Shown here one piece after another: positions 1-13,079 of a stretch of DNA of 64,000 nt. The translations under genes and the position numbers were made by a program. The notes beneath the pieces are model-generated. The model was not told the origin of the DNA, searched no databases, and worked only from the letters and a program-made list of their open reading frames with translations. Position 1 is the stretch's first letter. Each line of letters opens with the position of its first letter. The stretch is from Caenimonas sedimenti (GTDB lineage: Bacteria; Pseudomonadota; Gammaproteobacteria; Burkholderiales; Burkholderiaceae_C): contig NZ_VOBQ01000004.1 in the NCBI RefSeq assembly GCF_007833165.1, positions 513,112-577,111 on the forward strand. The letters are read 5' to 3'.

Positions 1-582
1 CACGCCCTTGGACTTGAGGAAGGCGCGCAGGATCTTGTTGGTGGTGCGGGGATACACGTAGTCGGTGCCCAGCAGCACGAAGCGCTTGGCGCCGCCGCCT
101 TCCTTGGACATCAGGTATTCGACGGCGGGGATGGCCTGCTGGTTGGGCGCGGCACCCGTGTAGAACACGTTCTTGGACAGCTCTTCACCTTCGTATTGCA
201 CGGGGTAGAACAGCAGGCCGTTCAGTTCCTCGACGACCGGCAGCACCGACTTGCGCGACACACTGGTCCAGCAGCCGAACATGACGGCGACCTTGTCCTG
301 CGTGAGCAGCTGCTTGGTCTTCTCGGCGAACAGCGGCCAGTTGGAGGCCGGATCGACCACCACGGGCTCGAGCTTCTTGCCCAGCACGCCGCCCTTGGCG
401 TTGATCTCTTCGATCGCCATGAGCACCGTGTCCTTGAGGACGGTCTCGGAAATGGCCATGGTGCCGGACAGGCTGTGCAGCACGCCGACCTTGATGGTGT
501 CGCCCGACTGGGCGAAGGAAACGCCCGCGCCGGCCAGTGCGACCGCGGCGGTGAGCGCCTTGAGGGTGAAACGACGTTGCAT
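1..582 (-). CDS. urtA: Urea ABC transporter substrate-binding protein UrtA (partial, 5' part only)
   Basis: The reverse strand reads open from an ATG at 582 through the left edge, so only about the first 194 residues are present. The N-terminus ([20 protein letters not shown]) is a typical signal peptide ending near SFA-QSG. The mature part has the Leu-Ile-Val-binding-protein-like features of Urt[15 protein letters not shown], then [30 protein letters not shown] and [15 protein letters not shown]. UrtA binds urea in the periplasm for the UrtBCDE importer, which would lie beyond the left edge. An upstream ATG at 588 is also possible, but AGGAG sits about 9 nt before 582 and only 3 nt before 588. 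The nearby urease operon supports a role in urea use. Confidence 0.93.
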
Positions 583-725
583 CTGCATTTGCTCCTGAAA
601 GCTGAAGGAAAACCCCGGAAAGAAACCTGAAACTCGCCTCACCTCGCCTCGAGGCTCGATGTGGACGGTTTGATTCTGGGATTCGGCTCAGCTTCCGGAA
701 ATACGTCGCATGGCGTACGGCCGGG

Positions 726-748
726 CGGGTCCGCCGTGCGCGGACCCG
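726..748 (-). terminator. GC-rich hairpin just downstream of the FAD oxidoreductase gene
   Basis: A perfect 9-bp inverted repeat (CGGGTCCGC and GCGGACCCG, 5-nt loop) starts 5 bases past the stop of the leftward gene at 753. No T-run follows, so an intrinsic terminator is uncertain. It could be a mRNA 3' end stabiliser. The rest of the 583-752 gap should carry the urtA promoter, but I see no clear -24/-12 or -35/-10 pair. Confidence 0.35.
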
Positions 749-752
749 CGTT

Positions 753-2189
753 TCAGCAGGCGGGCTCGGGCACCCGCTCCCTGGATTCGGGTCGGCAGGC
801 GGCCAGGAGGGCCGGCAGGCGCGGAGCGGCCGCCTTCACGGCGCGGACGTACCGCTCCATCACCTCCGGCGCCAGCTGGTGCCGCGCGCGCGTCGCGTAG
901 TCCAGGCGGCTGTTCTCCAGCCAATCCATCAGGCCCGGGTGGCGCGCCCAGGCCTGCCGGTTGGCCAGCGTGATCGCCTGCATCGTGACCCACCCCGCCT
1001 CGTCGCGCGGATGCGGCACCGGGCGGCACATCGCGTTCTTCTCCGCGGCACCGCCCGCCACCCGGGCTTCGACGGCGGCGATGAACGCAGCGCTGAAGGA
1101 CGGGCCGCACTGGCGCACGTACTGCAGGTGGATCGCCGCGTCATCCTCGAACACCGGGATCGGCGCCTGCAGCGGGATGCCGCAGGCCGTGCAGTCGATG
1201 AACAGCTCGCCGGGCAGCACATCGGCCTTTCCCTGGTCCAACGACAGCTGGCCCGGGGTGATGGAGCGCACGCGCCCCATCCGCAGGATGTTGCCGATCC
1301 GGCGGAGCTCCGCCAGTTCCTGCGTGGTGACGGTTGCGCAGCGGTACTTGGTGGGGCGGACGGAAGGGTCGAGACGCAGCAGCTGGCCCGCGCTTTCCAG
1401 CCGCATGAACAGGTCATCCAGCGACTCCGCTTCGGCCACGCATTCGAACTGCGCCGCCAGCGACCCGAAGAACCGGGGCAGATGCTCCGCGCCGGGCTGC
1501 ACGTTGGCACGGTCCAGGAACCAGGCGTCGTTCGGCATGACCCAGCGGATGCGCGACGGGTCGGTGCCGTTCTGCAGCAGCCACAGGCAGGCGTCGATGC
1601 CCGTCTTGCCCGACCCCACCACGGTGTAGCGCGCGTGAGGGCTGGCCAGGCGCGGCAGGGCATTGATCGGGACGCAATGGATGCCCGCGGCCACCTGGTA
1701 GCGTGGCGCATGCGTGGCCGGCACTTCGGTGCCGGTGTGCGTCGCATGCACGACCTTGCGGCGGACGGAAACGGCGATTTCCGCGCCGTCGAGAAGCGAG
1801 CGGAGGAGCTGCCGCCCTTGCCCGTCGATGCCCGCATGCTCCGTCATCGAAAGGAAGCGCACCCGGCCCGAAGCCAGCAGCTTCTGCCGCAGCAGCTGGT
1901 CGAAATGGTCCAGCACGGCCTGGCCGGAAGCCATCTCGTGCAGGCCGCGGTTGGTGCCCACCTCGTCCACCGCGCCGGTGGCAAGCTCGCGCGAGTTCAC
2001 GCCGTAGAACGCCGAGGGCTGGTGCAGCCGCACGAAGGAGTAGGCATCGTTCCAGTGGCCACCCGGGCGATGGCGGCGGTCCACCAGCGTGATGTGCGCG
2101 TCCGGGCGCTCGTCGAAGAGCGAGTCGGCGAAGGCCATGCCCATCGCGCCCGCGCCGATCACCAGGTAGTCCGTTTCGAAGTTTTCCAT
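753..2189 (-). CDS. FAD/NAD(P)-binding oxidoreductase, flavin monooxygenase-like
   Basis: 478 aa. The N-terminus has a Rossmann FAD motif, VIGAGAMG at about residues 10-17, followed by an acidic strand end (LVDRRHRPGGHW) as in flavin-containing monooxygenases. A second dinucleotide-binding motif, VVGSGKTG, lies near residues 190-197. Together these suggest an enzyme using both FAD and NAD(P)H; the substrate cannot be told. The frame stays open far upstream, but the ATG at 2189 directly precedes the FAD strand and has AAAGG and AAGAG upstream, so the longer frame is an artefact. The divergent neighbour is a hemerythrin-like protein, which might indicate an oxygen or redox link; this is inference. 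Confidence 0.75.
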   Translation of the reverse strand: MENFETDYLVIGAGAMGMAFADSLFDERPDAHITLVDRRHRPGGHWNDAYSFVRLHQPSAFYGVNSRELATGAVDEVGTNRGLHEMASGQAVLDHFDQLLRQKLLASGRVRFLSMTEHAGIDGQGRQLLRSLLDGAEIAVSVRRKVVHATHTGTEVPATHAPRYQVAAGIHCVPINALPRLASPHARYTVVGSGKTGIDACLWLLQNGTDPSRIRWVMPNDAWFLDRANVQPGAEHLPRFFGSLAAQFECVAEAESLDDLFMRLESAGQLLRLDPSVRPTKYRCATVTTQELAELRRIGNILRMGRVRSITPGQLSLDQGKADVLPGELFIDCTACGIPLQAPIPVFEDDAAIHLQYVRQCGPSFSAAFIAAVEARVAGGAAEKNAMCRPVPHPRDEAGWVTMQAITLANRQAWARHPGLMDWLENSRLDYATRARHQLAPEVMERYVRAVKAAAPRLPALLAACRPESRERVPEPAC

Positions 2190-2351
2190 GCTCTTGTGCC
2201 TTTCAGTCGAAGGAATTGTCGGAGCGCGAGGGGCGGGGGAACAGGGCCGCAAGTCGCCGCTTCTTGTCCGGATGTCCGGCGATGCCGTCCGACAGGGCCT
2301 GCCGCCGGTTCCGGCCCCAATGGAGGGACCCGCGAACCCCAGGAGCCCACC

Positions 2352-2960
2352 ATGACTTCCCTGCTGCACCAGCTCTCCCCTGGCATCACCAACATGATCC
2401 GGCTGGACCACAGCCATGTGCTCATGGCGTTCCACCAGTACGAGATGGACGCTTCGCCCCGGGTGAAGAAGGGCCTCGCGGACAATGTCTGCCTGGCCAT
2501 CGAGATCCACGCGCAGCTGGAAGAGGAGATCTTCTATCCGGCCCTGCGGCTCGTCGCCGACACCGAGGTGCTGCGCAAGAGCACGCCTGAGCACGACGAG
2601 ATGCGCGGGCTGATCGCCCGGCTGCGCAACACGCTGGTCACGGACCTGGAATTCGATGACGCATTCTTCACCCTGATGCGGCACGTCATGCACCACGTCG
2701 CCGATGAAGAGACGCTGTTGCTGCCTGCCGCGGAGCGGCTTTTGCCTCAGCAGCTGCCGGAGCTGGGCGCCCGGATGACGAGGCGCCGGCTGGAGCTGAC
2801 CGCGCCGCGTACGCCCGAACTGGCCAGCAGCATGGCGCGCTCCCTGAGCCTGGGGACGGCGGTAGCGGCCGGCACGGCGCTGATCAGCGGCGCCAGCCTG
2901 TTGGCGCGGCACCGGGGGCCGGGCGAGTCATGGTTGCGGCGCACGCCCGGCATCCGCTAG
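2352..2960 (+). CDS. Hemerythrin HHE cation-binding domain protein
   Basis: 202 aa. Residues 10-125 form a four-helix hemerythrin-type domain with candidate diiron ligands in order: H20/H22/H28, H53 with E57/E58, H81 (PEHDEM) and H111/H114/H115 with E119 (HVMHHVADEE). Such proteins bind O2, NO or iron. The C-terminus (about 165-185) carries a hydrophobic stretch, SLGTAVAAGTALISGASLL, which could anchor the protein to the membrane. AGGAGCCCACC precedes the ATG. It is divergent from the FAD oxidoreductase across a 162-bp intergenic region and ends 8 bp from the convergent response regulator. Family assignment is good; the ligand is unknown. Confidence 0.8.
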   Translation: MTSLLHQLSPGITNMIRLDHSHVLMAFHQYEMDASPRVKKGLADNVCLAIEIHAQLEEEIFYPALRLVADTEVLRKSTPEHDEMRGLIARLRNTLVTDLEFDDAFFTLMRHVMHHVADEETLLLPAAERLLPQQLPELGARMTRRRLELTAPRTPELASSMARSLSLGTAVAAGTALISGASLLARHRGPGESWLRRTPGIR

Positions 2961-2968
2961 CCAAAAGC

Positions 2969-3954
<986 letters not shown>

Positions 3955-3958
<4 letters not shown>

Positions 3959-6900
3959 CGGTCGGTTCCTTCCAGCGTGGGCATTGATGCGCGGGCCAGC
4001 TCGCGGCCGATCGCCTCGAACTGGAATTGCCGCGCCAGCTCGCGCATGGCGGCGGTGAATGCGCCGCACTCGGCTTGCGCATTGTCGATGGCGTCGAGCT
4101 GGTGCAGGATGCCGCGGTAGTAGCCCAGTTGCACGGCTTGCTGCAAAGGCGCCAGCAGGTCGGGACGCGGCCACACCCAGGCCGCCGGTTCGGATGGCGC
4201 CGGCAAGGGTGCCTCCTCCAGCCATTGCAGGCCGAGCTGCCGTTCCAGCCAATCCAGCAGTTCGCTATGGCGCACCGGCTTGAGGATGAAGTCTTCGGTG
4301 CGGATGCCGGCGTCGTTCTCCAGACCCTTGTCGAAGGCGTTGGCTGAAACCACGGCGATGCGAGCCTCCACGCCGTCCAGCCGGCGCACCCGGCGGATGG
4401 TCTCCCAGCCATCGATGCCGGGCATCGCGAGGTCCATCAGGATCGCGTCCGGTTGCAGGCCAGCCGCCAGGAGGTCCAGTGCATCGTGGCCGCTGGCCGC
4501 GGTGCGCAGCTCGAAGCCGAGGGGCTCCAACAGGTGCACCAGCAGCTCGCGGTCGGCTTCCTCGTTGTCGACCACCAGCACCTTGCGGCGCGCACCGGCA
4601 TAGGCGCGGCGCACAGGTTGCGCGCGCGCTTTGGGCACCGAAGCGGCGTGGACTTCGGGCAGGAACAGGTGGACCCGGAACACCGAGCCGCGGCCCGGCG
4701 TGCTGGTCGCGCTCAGCTGGCCGCCCATCAGGTCCGTGAGCATCTTGGCGATGGTGAGGCCCAGGCCGGCGCCGGGCGCCGAGTGGCTGGCCGTGTTGCC
4801 GCGCGCGAAGGGTTCGAAGATCTGGTCCAGTTCTTCCGTGGTCATGCCGGGGCCGGTGTCCTCGATGTCGATCAGCGCCATTTCGCGCGCATACCGGACG
4901 CGGAAGATCACCTGGCCCGCGGACGTGAACTTGATCGCGTTGCCGAGCAGGTTGATCAGGATCTGCCGCACGCGCTTTTCGTCCGCACGCACCACGTCCG
5001 GCACCGCGCCGCTGGCCTCGAAGCGAAAGGACAGGCCCTTGGCGGACGCCTGCAGCTCGAACAGGCTCGCCATCTCCTCCACGCAATCGGCAAAGCGCAT
5101 CGGCTTCACGTTCAACGTGAGCTTGCCGGATTCGATGCGGGCGATGTCCAGCGTGCCTTCGATCAGCGACAGCAGGTGTTCGCCGCCGCGCTTGATGACG
5201 TTGATGGCGTGCTTGCGGTGGCCCGGCATCGAGGCGTCTTCGCCCATCAGCTGCGCATAGCCCAGGATGCTGTTGAGCGGCGTGCGCAGCTCGTGGCTGA
5301 TGGCGCTGATGTAGCGGCTCTTGGCGTGGTTGGCCTGCTCCGCGGCCTGCTTGGCGGCCTCGGCCAGGATGCGCGCCTTCTGCAGCGCTTCGTCGGTCTG
5401 GCGGTGCGAATCGATCTCGCGCATCAGCAGGTGGGCCTGGCGGTTCGATTCCTCCTGCGCCACCTGCCGGCTCTTGTGCGCCAGCACCAGCCACCAGGCC
5501 ACGATGCCCGCCACCACCAGCAAGGCCATATAGGCCTTCAGGAACGTCGCCCGCAAGGCACTCTGGGTCATCGCCGCGAACTCGGGCAGCTGCGCCGCGC
5601 CCTGGGTCTCCTGGTGATACAGCAAGCCGATCAAGGCGCCGAGCAGCGGTGCCACCACCAGCATCAGCAGCAGGAAGTGGCCGAGGCCGGTGTCCAGGTA
5701 GGGCCAGATGCGCTTCGGCAACAACCAGCGCAGCGTGGCGGACCATTGCGCGGACAGGCTCGCCTCCGGTTTGCAGAGGTCGCCGCAGCGCGCATCGAGC
5801 GTGCAACAGAGGGAACAGATGGCGCCCTGGTAGGCCGGGCAATGGGCCATGTCCGGGCCCTCGTATTCGCGTTCGCAGATGACGCAGCGCTTCAGCGCGG
5901 TGGGGTGCACCGCCTCGTCCGGCTGACGCGCGATGTAGTAGCGGCCTTTGGTGGCCCACGCGATGGCCGGCGCGGCGACGAAGGCGACGCCCATGGCGAT
6001 GAGGGCCGAGAACGCTTGCGCCAGCGGACCGAACACCCCCAGGTAGGCCACGATCGAGAGCAGCGACGCCAGCGCCATCGCGCCGACGCCGACCGGATTG
6101 ATGTCGTACAGGTAGGCGCGCTTGAATTCGATGCCCTTGGGCGACAGGCCCAGCGGCTTGTTCACCACGAGGTCGGCCACGACGGCCATGATCCAGGCGA
6201 TGGCGATGTTGGAGTACAGGCCCAGCACCTCCCCGAGGGCCTGGAACACATTCATCTCCATCAGCATGAAGGCGATGAGCGTGTTGAACACGACCCAGAC
6301 CACCCGGCCCGGATGGCTGTGCGTGACGCGCGAGAAGAAGTTGGACCAGGCGAGCGAACCCGCATAGGCGTTGGTGACGTTGATCTTCAGCTGCGAGATC
6401 ACGACGAACAACGCGGTGGCCGCCACCGCCCACCCGTAGTTGGGGAACACGTACTCGTAGGCCGCCAGGTACATCTGGTTCGGGTCGACCGCGCGGTCGG
6501 TCGGCACCATGTGCTTGATGGCCAGGTAGGCCAGGCAGGCGCCGCCCAGCATCTTGATCACGCCCAGGACGACCCAGCCGGGGCCGCCGACCAGGACGCC
6601 CATCCACCAGGCGCGGCGGTTGTGCCGGGTCTGCGCCGGCATGAAGCGCAGGTAGTCGGCCTGTTCGCCCATCTGCGTGATCAGCGCGATGCCCACGGTC
6701 AAGGCTGCACCGAACAGGTGCAATTCAAAGCCGCCGCCCACCGACTTATCACCGGCATAGTGCGTGATTCCACTGAATGCACCAGGATCGCGCGCCAGCA
6801 CATAGGCAAAAGGCACCACGAGCATCACCAGCCAGATCGGCTGGGTCCAGGCCTGCAAGCGGCTGATGGCCGACACGCCGTGCGTCACGAGCGGGATCAC

Positions 6901-7455
6901 CGCCAGGGCGCAGATCAGGTAGCCCCAGCTCGGGGGGATGCCCAGCGCCAGTTCCAGCGCGTAGGCCATGACGGCCGCTTCCAGCGCGAAGAAGATGAAG
7001 GTGAACGACGCGTAGATCAGCGACGTCAACGTGGAGCCGATGTAGCCGAAGCCGGCGCCGCGCGTCAGCAGGTCCATGTCGACCCCGTAGCGGGCGGCGT
7101 AGATGCTGATCGGCAGGCCGGCCACGAAGATGATCAGCCCCGTGACGAGGATCGCCCAGAAGGCGTTCATGAAGCCGTACTGCACCAGCAGGGTGGCGCC
7201 GACGGCCTCCAGGATCAGGAACGAGGCGGCGCCGAAGGCGGTGTTGGCGACGCGGAACGGCGACCATTTGCGGAAGCGCTGCGGCGCGAAACGCAGCGCG
7301 TAGTCCTCCATCGTCTCGCTGGCGACCCAGTTGTTGTAATCCCGGCGCACCTTCACCACGCGCTGGGGCGCGCCTTCGGTGGGAATGGGCACGATCGGGA
7401 TGATTTGGCTCACCCCGGGAAATCGCAGGTTCCGTGCCACGGCCGGTTTGTCCAT
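3955..7455 (-). CDS. NCS1-type permease fused to hybrid sensor histidine kinase
   Basis: 1166 aa from the ATG at 7455. Residues about 35-515 look like a whole NCS1 (purine/cytosine/hydantoin family) permease: YNNWVASETMEDYALRF, then many membrane spans with GLPISIYAARYGVDMDLLTR and THGVSAISRLQAWTQP. A cysteine cluster follows (CVIC, then C539, C547, C550, C551, C557, C561), then two more membrane spans (about 590-660) and a coiled region. HisKA (SAISHELRTPLNS, H721), HATPase_c (NLLGNAIKF, DTGPGM, GAGLGL) and a C-terminal receiver (D1008 in ILMDLAMPG) complete it. The layout recalls CbrA-like transporter kinases but with another permease family. It overlaps the response regulator by ATGA and is divergent from ureA, suggesting sensing of urea or a related nitrogen compound. 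An ATG at 7488 is an alternative start, with no visible ribosome site. Confidence 0.85.
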
Positions 7456-7522
7456 CCGCCTTCTGGCGTATCGGGCGATGAAGGCCATGCACTAAGATGG
7501 CCCGTTACAAATCCGCCACGCC

Positions 7523-7825
7523 ATGGAACTCACGCCCCGCGAGAAAGACAAGCTGCTGCTGTTCACCGCCGCCCTGCTGGCGGAACGCCGCAAGGGCCGC
7601 GGGCTCAGGCTCAACTACCCGGAGGCGCTGGCGTTGATCTCCGCCGCCGTCATGGAAGGCGCGCGGGACGGCAAGACCGTGGCGCAGCTGATGAGCGAAG
7701 GGCGGTCCGTGCTGACTCGCGCCGACGTGATGGACGGGGTCGCCGAGATGATCCCCGAGATCCAGGTCGAGGCCACCTTCCCGGACGGGACCAAGCTGGT
7801 CACCGTGCACCAGCCGATCGTCTGA
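7523..7825 (+). CDS. ureA: Urease subunit gamma
   Basis: 100 aa, the usual UreA length. It starts [23 protein letters not shown] and contains [27 protein letters not shown] and ends VTVHQPIV, all typical of urease gamma. With UreB and UreC it forms the cytoplasmic nickel enzyme that hydrolyses urea to ammonia and carbamate. It is the first gene of the rightward urease operon. Its ATG lies only 67 bp (or 34 bp with the longer start) from the divergent sensor-kinase start, so the promoter must sit in that short gap or inside the kinase 5' end. Confidence 0.97.
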
Positions 7826-7844
7826 ACCTCCCGAGAAAGACTTC

Positions 7845-8018
7845 ATGTCACTCCGCAACCTGACCCTCGCCCTCTTCAGCGCGGCCACCGCGTCGGCGCA
7901 TGCCCACGGCGGCCACGGCGCCAGCACGGAGTGGCACTGGCACGCCACCGACACCTGGGGCTTCGTGATGGTCGCGGCGCTCGCGGCAGTGGCGATCTGG
8001 TTCTCGCGCGGGGACTGA
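7845..8018 (+). CDS. 57-aa His-rich single-span membrane microprotein in the urease operon
   Basis: A short frame between ureA and ureB, starting at ATG 7845 (GAGAAAG about 9 nt upstream) and stopping 3 bp before the ureB start. Residues 3-18 look like a short signal sequence ending ASAHA. A histidine-rich stretch follows with H19, H21, H24, H31 and H33 (HAHGGHG, EWHWHA), then one hydrophobic span (G39-F53) and a short polar tail. No other gene explains the 200 bp between ureA and ureB, and spacing on both sides is operon-like. I do not recognise a named family. The His pattern and context suggest a periplasm-facing nickel-binding helper; this is inference. Confidence 0.75.
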   Translation: MSLRNLTLALFSAATASAHAHGGHGASTEWHWHATDTWGFVMVAALAAVAIWFSRGD

Positions 8019-8021
8019 GCC

Positions 8022-8327
8022 GTGATCCCCGGAGAATTGCTTCCCGCGGCCGGTGACCACACGCTGAACCCCGGCCGCCGCACGGCGACGGTGGTGGTGC
8101 AGAACACCGCGGACCGGCCGATTCAGGTCGGCTCGCACTATCACTTCGCCGAGACCAACGGCGCATTGCAGTTCGATCGCACGGCGGCGCACGGCATGCG
8201 GCTGAACATCGCGTCGGGCACCGCCGTGCGGTTCGAACCGGGCCAGCAGCGCACGGTGGAACTGGTGGACTACGCCGGCGACCGCAAGATCTACGGCTTC
8301 CGCGGCCTGGTGCAAGGGAACATCTAG
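8022..8327 (+). CDS. ureB: Urease subunit beta
   Basis: 101 aa, standard for UreB. It reads [19 protein letters not shown], then [11 protein letters not shown] and ends with [12 protein letters not shown], matching urease beta throughout. The start codon is GTG, 3 bases after the stop of the 57-aa microprotein; the GGGGACTGA overlapping that stop may serve as ribosome site, so translation of the two is probably coupled. It forms part of the (UreABC)3 enzyme. ureC starts 3 bases after its stop. Confidence 0.97.
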
Positions 8328-8330
8328 AAC

Positions 8331-10049
8331 ATGGCCACGATCCCCCGCCGCGCCTATGCGGAAATGTTCGGTCCCACCAAGGGCGACCGCGTGCGGCTGG
8401 CCGACACCGAACTGGTGATCGAGGTCGAGGACGACTACACGCTGCGCGCGGGCGGGTACGGCGAGGAAGTGAAGTTCGGCGGCGGCAAGACGATCCGCGA
8501 CGGCATGGCGCAGTCGCAGCGCACGCGCGCCGAGGGCACTGTGGACACGGTGCTGACCAATGCGCTGATCGTGGACCACTGGGGCATCGTCAAGGCCGAC
8601 ATCGGCCTGAAGGACGGCCGCATCGCCGCCATCGGCAAGGCCGGCAACCCCGACACGCAACCCGGCGTGGACATCGTCATCGGCCCGGGCACCGAGATCA
8701 TCAGCTGCGAAGGCGCCATCGTCACCGCCGGCGGCATCGACAGCCACATCCACTTCATCTGCCCGCAGCAGATCGAGGAGGCGCTCGCCGCAGGCATCAC
8801 CACCATGCTCGGCGGCGGTACCGGCCCCGCCACCGGCACCTTCGCCACCACCTGCACGCCGGGGCCCTGGAACATCGAACGCATGCTGCAGGCAGCCGAC
8901 GCGTTCCCGATGAACCTGGGTTTCCTCGGCAAAGGCAACGCCAGCCTGCCGGCCGCGCTGCACGAACAGATCGACGCGGGTGTGATCGGCCTGAAGCTGC
9001 ACGAAGACTGGGGAACGACGCCCGCCGCCATCAGCAACTGCCTGGATGTGGCCGATGCGACCGACACGCAGGTCGCGATCCACTCCGACACGCTGAACGA
9101 ATCCGGCTTCGTCGAGAACACCATCGCCGCGACCAAGGGCCGTGGGCTCTGCGCGTTTCACACCGAGGGCGCGGGCGGCGGCCACGCCCCGGACATCCTG
9201 CGCGTGGTGGGGGAGGCGAACTTCCTGCCTTCGTCCACCAACCCAACGATGCCGTACACGGTGAACACGCTGGACGAGCACGTGGACATGCTGATGGTGT
9301 GCCACCACCTCGACCCGGCCATCCCGGAAGACCTGGCCTTCGCCGAAAGCCGCATCCGCAAGGAAACCATCGCGGCCGAAGACATCCTGCACGACCTGGG
9401 CGCGATCAGCATGATGTCCAGCGACTCGCAGGCCATGGGCCGCGTGGGCGAAGTGATCCTGCGCACTTGGCAGACCGCGCACAAGATGAAGGTGCAGCGC
9501 GGCGCGCTCCCTGAGGACGGCGCGCAGAACGACAACTTCCGCGCCAAGCGCTACATCGCCAAGTACACGATCAACCCCGCCATCGCGCACGGCATCTCGC
9601 ACGAAGTCGGCAGCATCGAAGCCGGCAAGTGGGCCGACCTGGTGATCTGGAAGCCGGCGTTCTTCGGCGTCAAGCCGGCGCTGATCCTGAAGGGCGGCTT
9701 CATCGCCATGGCGGCGATGGGGGACCCGAATGCCTCGATCCCCACGCCGCAACCGGTGCACTACCGCCCCATGTTCGGCAGCTACGGCGGCGCGCTGGCG
9801 CGCGGCTCGATCACCTTCGTGTCGCAGGCCGGGCTGACCGGTGGCTTGAAGGAGCGCTACGGCCTGGCCAAGACGGTGAGCGCCGTCAAGAACATCCGGC
9901 AAGTCCGCAAGCAGCACCTGATCCACAACAGCTACCTGCCGAAGATGGAGATCGACGCGCAGACCTATGCGGTGCGCGCGGACGGTGTCTTGCTCACCTG
10001 CGAGCCGGCCAAGGTGCTGCCGATGGCGCAGCGCTACTTCCTCTTCTAG
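8331..10049 (+). CDS. ureC: Urease subunit alpha (catalytic)
   Basis: 572 aa, full length. All nickel-centre residues are present: H139 and H141 ([11 protein letters not shown]), the lysine to be carbamylated K222 (GLKLHEDWG), H251, H277 and D365 ([11 protein letters not shown]), plus the catalytic flap histidine H325 (MVCHHLDPA). These sit at a constant offset of 5 from the well-known Klebsiella numbering. It hydrolyses urea in the cytoplasm once the accessory proteins load nickel. It follows ureB after 3 bases and precedes ureE after 9 bases, in one transcription unit. The enzyme appears intact and active. Confidence 0.99.
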
Positions 10050-10058
10050 GCCATCCTC

Positions 10059-10574
10059 ATGCTGCAGGTTTCCAAGCGCCTGCCTGCCGGGCAAGGACTG
10101 GCGCCGGTGCTGCTGAAGCGCGCGGCGACGGTCGAACTCGATTGGGACGTGCGGCAGAAGAGCCGCTTCGACGCCACCGATTCCCAAGGCCGCGCGCTCG
10201 GCGTGTTCCTGCCGCGCGGCACGGTGGTCCGTGGCGGCGATGTGCTGGTGGCGGAGGACGGCTCCGTGATCCGGGTGATCGCCGCGCCGCAGCCGGTGCT
10301 GGTGATCACGCATTGCGGCGAGCACGGCACGCCGTTCGACCTGCTGCGCGCCGCCTACCACCTGGGCAACCGCCATGTCGCGATCGAGCTGAAGCCTGAT
10401 CACCTGAAGATCGAGCCCGACCACGTGCTGGCGGAGATGCTGCGTGCGATGCACCTGATCGTGAACGAAGCGCAGGCGGCGTTCGAGCCGGAGGGCGGCG
10501 CGTACGCGTCGCACGACTCGCACGGGCACGCGCATGGCCATGGCGCCCATGGACACGCCCACCACGACCACTGA
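10059..10574 (+). CDS. ureE: Urease accessory protein UreE (nickel metallochaperone)
   Basis: 171 aa. The body is the UreE fold, with the central metal-binding histidine in [10 protein letters not shown] and the conserved [12 protein letters not shown]. The last 20 residues are a nickel-binding tail with 10 histidines among Gly and Ala. UreE delivers Ni(II) to the UreG-containing complex. The His tail is also the coding overlap with ureF, whose start lies inside it. Some bacterial UreE proteins lack such a tail, so this form may also store nickel. Confidence 0.96.
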
Positions 10575-11238
10575 CGCGGCGCTGCTGCAGCTGATCTGGC
10601 TGGCGTCGCCCGCCTTGCCGGTGGGTGGCTTCTCCTATTCCGAGGGCATCGAGGCGGCCGTCGAAGCCGGCCTGGTGCACGACGAAAACTCCGCCGCGAA
10701 CTGGATCGCCGACCAGCTGCACCTGGCGCTGGCCCGTGCCGACCTGCCCGTGCTCGCGCAGGCGGTGGAGGCTTGGCGCGCCGTGGACATGCCGACGCTG
10801 GCGGCGTTGGACGACTGGGTGCGCACCACCCGCGAGACCAGCGAGCTGCGCCAGCAGACGGAGCAGATGGGCCGCTCGCTCGTCGAGTGGGCGCGGGCTG
10901 TGCGGCCTGAACTCCTGGCCGGCATGGCCCGCGCGGACACCTTCACCTATCCCGTGGCTTTCGCCATGACTGCGGCCGCCTCCGGCGCGCCGGTGCGGCA
11001 CGTCTTGCTGGCCTTTGCCTTCGGGTGGGGCGAGAACATGATGCAATCCGCCATCAAGGCGGTGCCGCTGGGGCAGAGCGCCGGGCAACGCATCCTGGGC
11101 CGCCTGGCCGCCGAAGTGCCGCTGGCGGTCGACCACGCGCTGGCGCTGGGCATGGAAGAGCGCCAGGCCTTCACCCCGATGCTGGCCATCCTGTCGGCAC
11201 AGCACGAGACCCAATACTCCCGATTGTTCCGCTCATGA
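10549..11238 (+). CDS. ureF: Urease accessory protein UreF
   Basis: 229 aa from ATG 10549. Conserved UreF blocks are present: [19 protein letters not shown], then [10 protein letters not shown] and [20 protein letters not shown]. UreF links UreD to UreG in the urease activation complex and controls the GTPase. Three in-frame ATGs (10534, 10540, 10549) all lie inside the ureE His tail. I chose the last because it gives the normal UreF N-terminus; the overlap with ureE is 26 bp or more. It overlaps ureG by ATGA. Confidence 0.94.
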
Positions 11239-11882
11239 GCTCCACACTGCACCACATCGCCAACCGCACCAAGAGACTGCCGCCGCTGCGCGTGGGCATC
11301 GGCGGCCCGGTCGGCTCCGGCAAGACCACGCTGCTGGAGATGCTGTGCAAGGCGATGCGCGGTCGCTACGACCTGGTCGCCATCACCAACGACATCTACA
11401 CCAAGGAGGACCAGCGCATCCTGACGGTGAGCGGCGCCCTGCCGGCCGAGCGGATCCTGGGTGTGGAGACCGGCGGCTGCCCGCACACCGCCATCCGCGA
11501 GGACGCGTCGATCAACCTCGAAGCCATCGACCGCATGCTGGGTGAATTCCCGGACGCCGATGTGGTGTTCGTCGAATCCGGCGGCGACAACCTCGCGGCC
11601 ACCTTCAGCCCCGAGCTGAGCGACCTCACCATCTACGTGATCGACGTGGCGGCGGGCGAGAAGATCCCGCGCAAGGGCGGGCCAGGCATCACCAAGAGCG
11701 ACCTGTTCGTCATCAACAAGACCGATCTGGCGCCTTACGTCGGCGCGGACCTAGGCGTGATGGAAGCGGACACGAAGCGCATGCGCAAGGACAAGCCTTT
11801 CGTGATGACCAACCTGAAGACGAAGCAGGGGCTGGACGAAGTGGTGGCGTTCATCGAGCGCAAGGGGATGCTCGACGCCTGA
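11235..11882 (+). CDS. ureG: Urease accessory GTPase UreG
   Basis: 215 aa. SIMIBI-class GTPase with P-loop [10 protein letters not shown] (23-32), the switch segment [10 protein letters not shown], the metal-binding C82-P-H84 motif (ETGGCPH), [13 protein letters not shown] and the NKTD guanine-specificity motif. UreG hydrolyses GTP to drive nickel insertion into UreC. The start is fixed by an ATGA overlap with ureF. It is the last gene of the operon visible here; a tRNA-Ser gene on the other strand follows after 20 bp. ureD, the remaining accessory gene, is not adjacent. Confidence 0.97.
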
Positions 11883-12517: not shown

Positions 12518-12662
12518 TCCCGGGGCCGGGCTCGGCCTGCGGTCGAGCTAACTTTCCTGTTACAGCGGTCGGGAAGAGTTTGCACAAGCTTTGCGGGTCT
12601 TGTCCCTCACTGCACCTTGCGGGCGCAGCATCCAATGGCATATAGCCTCAAAGGAGCTCGCC

Positions 12663-13079
12663 ATGAGAACTCAAGCCATTGCCTTCGCCATCGCCGCTGC
12701 CGCAGCGTCGCTCGCCGCCGTCCCGGCGTCGGGCCAGACCGATCCGGGCTCCGCCAACGGCGGCTCCGCCGAAAACCACACGGGCATCCAGATGTACCCG
12801 GGGTACGGCGCGCACCCGCCCGAGTCCGGCGCCCAGTTCAACGGCCAGATCGAGCAGCGTGCCAACCCGGGTGCCGAGCAGCGCTACCGCAACTACGGCG
12901 AGTGGCTGGGCCTGGGGTCGGTGGTGCCGCGTGAATACCGCTCGAACCGGTACGCGCAGGACTGGCGTGCACGCGGGCTGAACAACCCCGGCGCGAACCG
13001 CCAGTGGGTGCGGATCGGGTCGGACTACTACCTCGTTTCGCGTTCCGACGGGCGGGTGATCCGCCGCTGGGACCGCTGA
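12663..13079 (+). CDS. RcnB-like exported protein
   Basis: 138 aa. An N-terminal signal peptide (MRTQAIAFAIAAAAASLA, cleavage near PASGQ) is followed by a Gly/Asn/Gln-rich region and a C-terminal RcnB-type motif (QWVRIGSDYYLVSRSDGRVIRRW). RcnB-family proteins are periplasmic and in E. coli take part in nickel/cobalt homeostasis; many relatives are uncharacterised. A strong ribosome site (AAAGGAGCTCGCC) selects this ATG over the longer frame. Its position 0.8 kb after the nickel-dependent urease operon is suggestive but not proof of a nickel role. The 145-bp gap before it shows no clear promoter to me. Confidence 0.72.
   Translation: MRTQAIAFAIAAAAASLAAVPASGQTDPGSANGGSAENHTGIQMYPGYGAHPPESGAQFNGQIEQRANPGAEQRYRNYGEWLGLGSVVPREYRSNRYAQDWRARGLNNPGANRQWVRIGSDYYLVSRSDGRVIRRWDR

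Follow-up and report, generated by a model that had tools for sequence, protein, structure and literature searches.

Domain order of the fusion and its place at the locus

We analysed a 64,000-nucleotide stretch of Caenimonas sedimenti DNA (contig NZ_VOBQ01000004.1, positions 513,112 to 577,111; hereafter the window, whose own numbering is used below), in which a reverse-strand gene at 3955..7488 joins an NCS1-like permease to a cysteine cluster, two helices and the HisKA, HATPase and receiver (REC) domains of a hybrid histidine kinase. The open reading frame encodes 1177 amino acids (aa). An earlier note on this DNA, which first described the fusion, had placed its start at ATG 7455; this codon is an internal start of the longer frame and gives 1166 aa. 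Since most alignments of close orthologues to the fusion begin only at residue 12–18, ATG 7455 or GTG 7440 may be the true start.

The fusion and its response regulator are placed between urea transporter genes and urease genes. The regulator, a NarL/LuxR-type protein of 329 aa (2969..3958, reverse strand) in which Pfam finds REC and GerE domains, starts at an ATG (3958) that shares the sequence ATGA with the stop codon of the kinase. On the other side, ureA diverges from the fusion by 34 bp counted from 7488 or 67 bp counted from 7455, and both junctions are as the earlier note had read them. The urease genes run forward as ureA (gamma, 7523..7825), ureB (beta, 8022..8327), ureC (alpha, 8331..10049), ureE (10059..10574), ureF (10534..11238) and ureG (11025..11882, the longest frame, whose true start is probably further in). 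The 5' part of urtA occupies 1..579 on the reverse strand, with its start at about 579, and the remaining urtABCDE genes lie directly left of the window. Between the regulator and urtA are a hemerythrin-domain gene and a Rossmann-type gene (about 2270–2960, forward, and 753–2190, reverse), and a protein with an RcnB-type (nickel/cobalt regulator) domain is encoded downstream of the urease genes at 12591–13079.

All three kinase domains that had been claimed were found by Pfam: HisKA at residues 722–788 (5125..5325), HATPase_c at 836–943 (4660..4983) and REC at 970–1080 (4249..4581). Conservation was scored in 125 aligned proteins, with seven of 131 loci excluded beforehand for short or broken reads. 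The phospho-acceptor H732 (5293–5295) is a histidine in 125/125; D1019 of the receiver (4432–4434) is an aspartate in 121/125, and the other four have a gap there. Mean identity of the aligned family to the window protein is 67% in the permease, 65% in HisKA, 58% in HATPase and 52% in REC, so that the permease is conserved at least as well as the kinase, which fits a constant ligand. A protein search returned at least 7999 relatives, and HisKA was present in 120/120 among the matches listed. We regard the fusion architecture as confirmed, and not as a chance product.

The permease domain spans about residues 48–520 (5929..7347). A fold search with a model of the N-terminal domain gave CodB and Mhp1, both stand-alone transporters, as the best matches, at 12–18% identity in the alignments. 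By hhalign the permease profile matched the CodB pair (96.4%, E 1.2e-9) and three stand-alone relatives (L256, L257 and L258; 99.9%), of which L256 matches PF02133 with 36.4 bits (cutoff 23.5), L258 falls under the cutoff and L257 has no match. The window protein and eight aligned members gave no direct PF02133 match at E up to 1, and we therefore call the domain NCS1-like and do not class it as a PF02133 member. Fold and profile comparison thus support an NCS1 relationship, and the complete permease that had been claimed is borne out by these comparisons and by a complete core in the model, though Pfam does not see it. Many near-invariant positions fall in residues 143–170, 272–284 and 366–402, which by analogy would correspond to transmembrane helices (TM) 3, 6 and 8. 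The stand-alone permease of L256 (5956–7446) shares about 30% identity with its fused counterpart and is possibly a relative of the domain donor.

Behind the permease, eight cysteines lie within residues 535–572 (5773..5886), at positions 535, 538, 550, 558, 561, 562, 568 and 572 (C-x2-C-x11-C-x7-C-x2-CC-x5-C-x3-C). All eight, counted as such in the earlier note, are invariant in 125/125 aligned proteins. At L121 (533 aa), one of the excluded loci, the cluster is degenerate and several of the eight are missing. Two long hydrophobic helices follow at about residues 592–632 and 635–663 (5500..5715), likely the two extra membrane spans that had been proposed. A separate model of the cysteine and helix part (predicted local distance difference test score, 88) has short strands and one helix and then the long hydrophobic helices. 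Compared by fold, the cysteine part comes closest to two-zinc domains of the cross-brace type (RING, FYVE, ZZ, PHD), in matches too weak to rely on, and the cluster may be a domain of that kind. Pfam finds no match in residues 525–720, and the eight-cysteine domain with its two helices occupies the stretch where STAC sits in CbrA and CrbS.

Distribution and gene company of the fusion

Homologues of the N-terminal 580 residues were found in 65 of 399 genomes of an order sample (E 1e-20) and in 55 of 398 genomes of a phylum sample (E 1e-8), three of the latter having only a fragment or a remote stand-alone permease as the match. Going by the names of the GTDB loci, we took these samples to represent Burkholderiales and Pseudomonadota. 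The matches lie mostly within open frames of about 1100–1400 aa. A homologue of the regulator was present in the fetched DNA at 58/67 order loci and at 36/41 loci outside the order.

Neighbours were typed by tblastn with selected queries on the fetched DNA, and a locus was counted as linked when ure, urt, fmdA or amiE was present. By this measure, and leaving out the window's own locus, 54/67 order-sample loci were linked (ure at 21, urt at 42, fmdA or amiE at 34), as were 39/41 phylum-sample loci outside the order (ure at 6, urt at 37, fmdA or amiE at 29), where both unlinked loci are situated at contig ends. The earlier note had proposed to abandon its reading if most homologues were remote from genes of urease or urea transport, and these counts show the reverse. 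Where at least 6 kb of upstream DNA was available, 49/58 order loci and 39/39 loci outside the order were linked. Assuming about one ureC per genome of 4 Mb, ureC would fall within 10 kb of a locus by chance in about 0.5% of cases, and any of the genes counted in a few percent at most; this figure is an estimate only and stands in for a random-locus control.

The company varies within the family. In close relatives (at least 75% identity) ureA diverges from the fusion at the own locus and at 21/21 others. At four loci of about 45–52% identity the fetched DNA contains no urease; urt genes are present at three, accompanied at two of these by formamidase FmdA and an aliphatic amidase (NCBIfam above cutoff), and the fourth, L023, is a 3.8-kb contig. 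An fmdA-type gene is the only linked neighbour at four loci (L118, L120, L249 and L251). Among the named GTDB loci, which were picked by similarity to the window and are thus biased to the urease type, 64/80 were linked and several of the 16 misses were cut by contig ends; this set and the close relatives may count the same or sister species twice.

Presence of the fusion also goes with urease at the level of whole genomes. In a 120-genome subset, which the rows listed indicate to be G000 and G037–G155, strong matches to urease alpha were found in 21/23 fusion genomes vs 27/97 others (p 2e-8, ignoring relatedness). Four genomes with weak PF00449 matches (G055, G091, G129 and G135), all fusion-free, were excluded from this test. 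The two fusion genomes without urease alpha are those of the divergent loci L115 and L119.

Some members stand in other surroundings or differ in build. Directly upstream of the unlinked fusion of L088, and divergent from it, is a Cas13b gene (220–3534; NCBIfam VI_Cas13b, 654.8 bits, cutoff 150). At L064, nifHDK-type nitrogenase genes (3846–7927) lie upstream of an unlinked fusion, and the frames of L065 match in size and order. The unlinked fusion of L089 has a CbiM-like gene as its divergent neighbour (8159–8887; a weak NCBIfam match, 42 bits, cutoff 219). L118 (6623–10716), L249 and L251 hold shorter, receiver-less fusions of 870–948 aa with only the fmdA-type gene near; the gene next to the fusion of L118 encodes a receiver and an EAL domain, and the output there may involve cyclic di-GMP. 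The fusions of L115 (8980–13167) and L119 (8860–13104) are divergent and longer, with PAS and Hpt domains in L115, and their ligand may differ; that of L119 is flanked by nadA and a nicotinamide mononucleotide adenylyltransferase gene.

A candidate operator upstream of urtA

In the window, the operator-like palindrome TACGTCGCATGGCGTA lies at 702..717, about 120 bp before urtA. The dyad TACG-N8-CGTA is present in 40/48 non-redundant gaps between fusion and divergent urtA, and the top dyads of five shuffles reached 6–9; the consensus is ATACG(T/C)N6(A/G)CGTA. Its density is 3.3 per kb in these gaps vs 0.022 per kb elsewhere in 3.7 Mb of loci. All 55 such gaps score above the 95% shuffle level with a matrix built from the same set. 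Counting linked and unlinked genes together, the palindrome stands before 105/127 urtA genes, mostly 60–180 bp from the start. After removal of redundancy it was found at 57/64 urtA genes of the standard type and 37/51 of the amide-operon type, and four control palindromes at 0–2.

The palindrome is linked to the presence of the fusion. Of the 97 genomes without the fusion, 80 were searched; their 39 UrtA-like matches yielded 30 loci, and the palindrome was absent from 17/17 and 11/11 urtA-type genes there. In fusion genomes with an unlinked urtA it was found at 4/6 standard urtA genes. A matrix made from other genomes only ranked position 702 first among all positions of the 64-kb window (19.0), and placed second a weaker operator-like palindrome in the fusion–ureA gap (7455..7470; 11.6), the third match scoring 6.5. 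In the 5.9-Mb genome the strict pattern TACGYC-N4-GRCGTA has a single copy, at 702, and its reversed control has three, so that the place of this copy, not the number, is telling.

Because the palindrome stands mainly before urtA, the urea ATP-binding cassette (ABC) transporter operon, rather than urease, is the best-supported target. In the fusion–ureA gaps, 23/79 exceed the 95% shuffle level (about 4 expected), and the top dyad is CGCC-N4-GGCG (14/74 vs at most 8 shuffled). The exact palindrome was found in 0/79 of these gaps, their median matrix score equals that of shuffles, and the one-mismatch pattern matches the window six times vs 6.3 expected; operator control of ureABC is for these reasons only weakly suggested.

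Proposed function, rival explanations and known systems

Taken together, the gene company and the palindrome make it likely, in our view, that the fusion is an NCS1-like receptor for urea or short amides which, through the NarL-type regulator, would activate urtABCDE and possibly ureABC at TACG-N8-CGTA. The NCS1-like permease would bind, rather than (or as well as) transport, urea or a short amide. Binding would shift the cysteine domain together with the two added helices, altering kinase activity; phosphate would pass to the regulator from H732, perhaps with D1019 as an intermediate, and the phosphorylated regulator would bind the palindrome and activate urt, perhaps also ure. A transceptor is the most economical reading of the locus, and we infer every step between ligand and activation. 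The wider claim, which we see as evenly balanced, is that receptors for urea and short amides form a family spread across the Pseudomonadota, built of an NCS1 permease, a novel two-metal cysteine domain and a hybrid kinase and having its own operator code TACG-N8-CGTA, by which urea uptake would answer urea itself and not only general nitrogen control.

As to the ligand, known NCS1 substrates (hydantoin, allantoin, cytosine and uracil) share an amide or ureide group, and urea is the smallest ureide; a fit between urea and an NCS1 pocket would therefore be chemically natural. The earlier note had left open a urea-like or a purine-derived substrate. Since formamidase and aliphatic amidase recur as partners, and nothing that points to a purine-derived ligand was found among the neighbours typed, urea and short amides are the better fit, and the earlier reading is supported in part.

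Several observations weigh against the proposed urea and amide sensor. Besides the absent PF02133 match, 13/67 order loci are unlinked by the strict test (L062, L064, L065, L067, L070, L075, L080, L087, L088 and L089, and the divergent L115, L119 and L121), one of which, L080, carries ureE and ureG. Nine core-family loci keep the fusion unlinked; a UrtA-like protein is encoded elsewhere in 8/9 of these genomes, and in two cases it lies no more than about 30 kb away on the fusion's own contig. L115 and L119 have neither a linked neighbour nor a urease in the genome. The exact palindrome is missing from 8/55 divergent fusion–urtA gaps, all eight outside the order, and from all four amide-type urtA genes found elsewhere in unlinked genomes (0/4). 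The number of strict-pattern copies is not above chance, and the fusion–ureA gaps and one-mismatch counts given above add to this side.

The unlinked copies would suit a system whose neighbourhood and palindrome are inherited passengers, the fusion regulating something else while urt answers to general nitrogen regulators. We consider this very improbable, given that the genes occur in several orders and that the palindrome is absent before fusion-free urtA and present before most unlinked standard urtA genes of fusion genomes. It also seems improbable that another NCS1-type ligand is sensed, such as allantoin, hydantoin or uracil, whose breakdown yields urea: the NCS1 relationship of the permease would allow it, but formamidase and amidase recur instead, and typing of the neighbours with selected queries, which is no full survey, turned up no genes for purine or hydantoin catabolism.

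An intracellular or metallic signal, with the eight-cysteine domain binding zinc, nickel or an iron–sulfur cluster and reporting metal or redox state for urease, would draw on the invariance of the eight cysteines and on the nickel enzyme adjoining in this window. We think it unlikely, as the fusion is next to urt-fmdA-amiE in many members whose fetched DNA contains no urease, the cysteine model is only weakly like structural two-zinc folds, and the permease, on this account a mere anchor, ranks second in conservation among the parts, more than an anchor would require. The receptor proposed here could instead be a working urea or amide transporter that also signals, a true transceptor and not a transport-dead receptor. 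This is possible, if doubtful: the core is complete in the model, near-invariant residues are rich in the segments equated with TM3, TM6 and TM8, and the SLC5 domain of CbrA is described, in the cited part of the source, as a functional histidine transporter (PMC13022988). However, a dedicated ABC transporter is already among the neighbours, and Ks-Amt5 shows, in the part of the paper cited, that transport activity can be lost when a transporter is part of a fusion (PMC5764959).

Among fertilisers and sources of soil nitrogen, urea is a major one. If the reading holds, SLC5 and Amt are joined by one more transporter superfamily with a receptor role, and the family offers target promoters, a candidate operator and hosts known by species name, Variovorax paradoxus (L148) among them, by which signalling through a transporter fold becomes directly testable for two related ligand classes. 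The literature searched held no description of an NCS1–kinase fusion and no two-component urea or amide sensor of that type.

CrbS/CrbR and CbrA/CbrB, as far as the cited parts of their sources describe them, are the nearest known relatives in working; like these SLC5/STAC kinases, the fusion joins a permease to a kinase and is paired with a response regulator. CbrB is a response regulator of another type than the NarL/LuxR-type protein found here. CrbS/CrbR responds to acetate and comprises an SLC5–STAC hybrid kinase and a LuxR-type regulator, with an imperfect inverted repeat upstream of its targets (PMC5715377); the present fusion differs in its NCS1-like permease, its eight-cysteine domain and its urea and amide gene company. 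CbrA, which senses histidine, shares the transceptor logic of permease and kinase in one chain, but has SLC5, STAC and PAS domains, and the cited part of its description mentions no receiver (PMC13022988). Ks-Amt5 likewise uses the fold of a nitrogen-compound transporter as the receptor of a fused kinase; it is an Amt-fold trimer, for which only DHp and CA subdomains are described in the part cited (PMC5764959). For Ectopseudomonas guguanensis G3, the cited part of a 2026 paper mentions neither a permease domain nor a function for a hybrid sensor 'HK', which is drawn with a LuxR-family regulator near a second urtABCDE operon (PMC13296017). Compared by description only, this kinase is possibly a member of the family.
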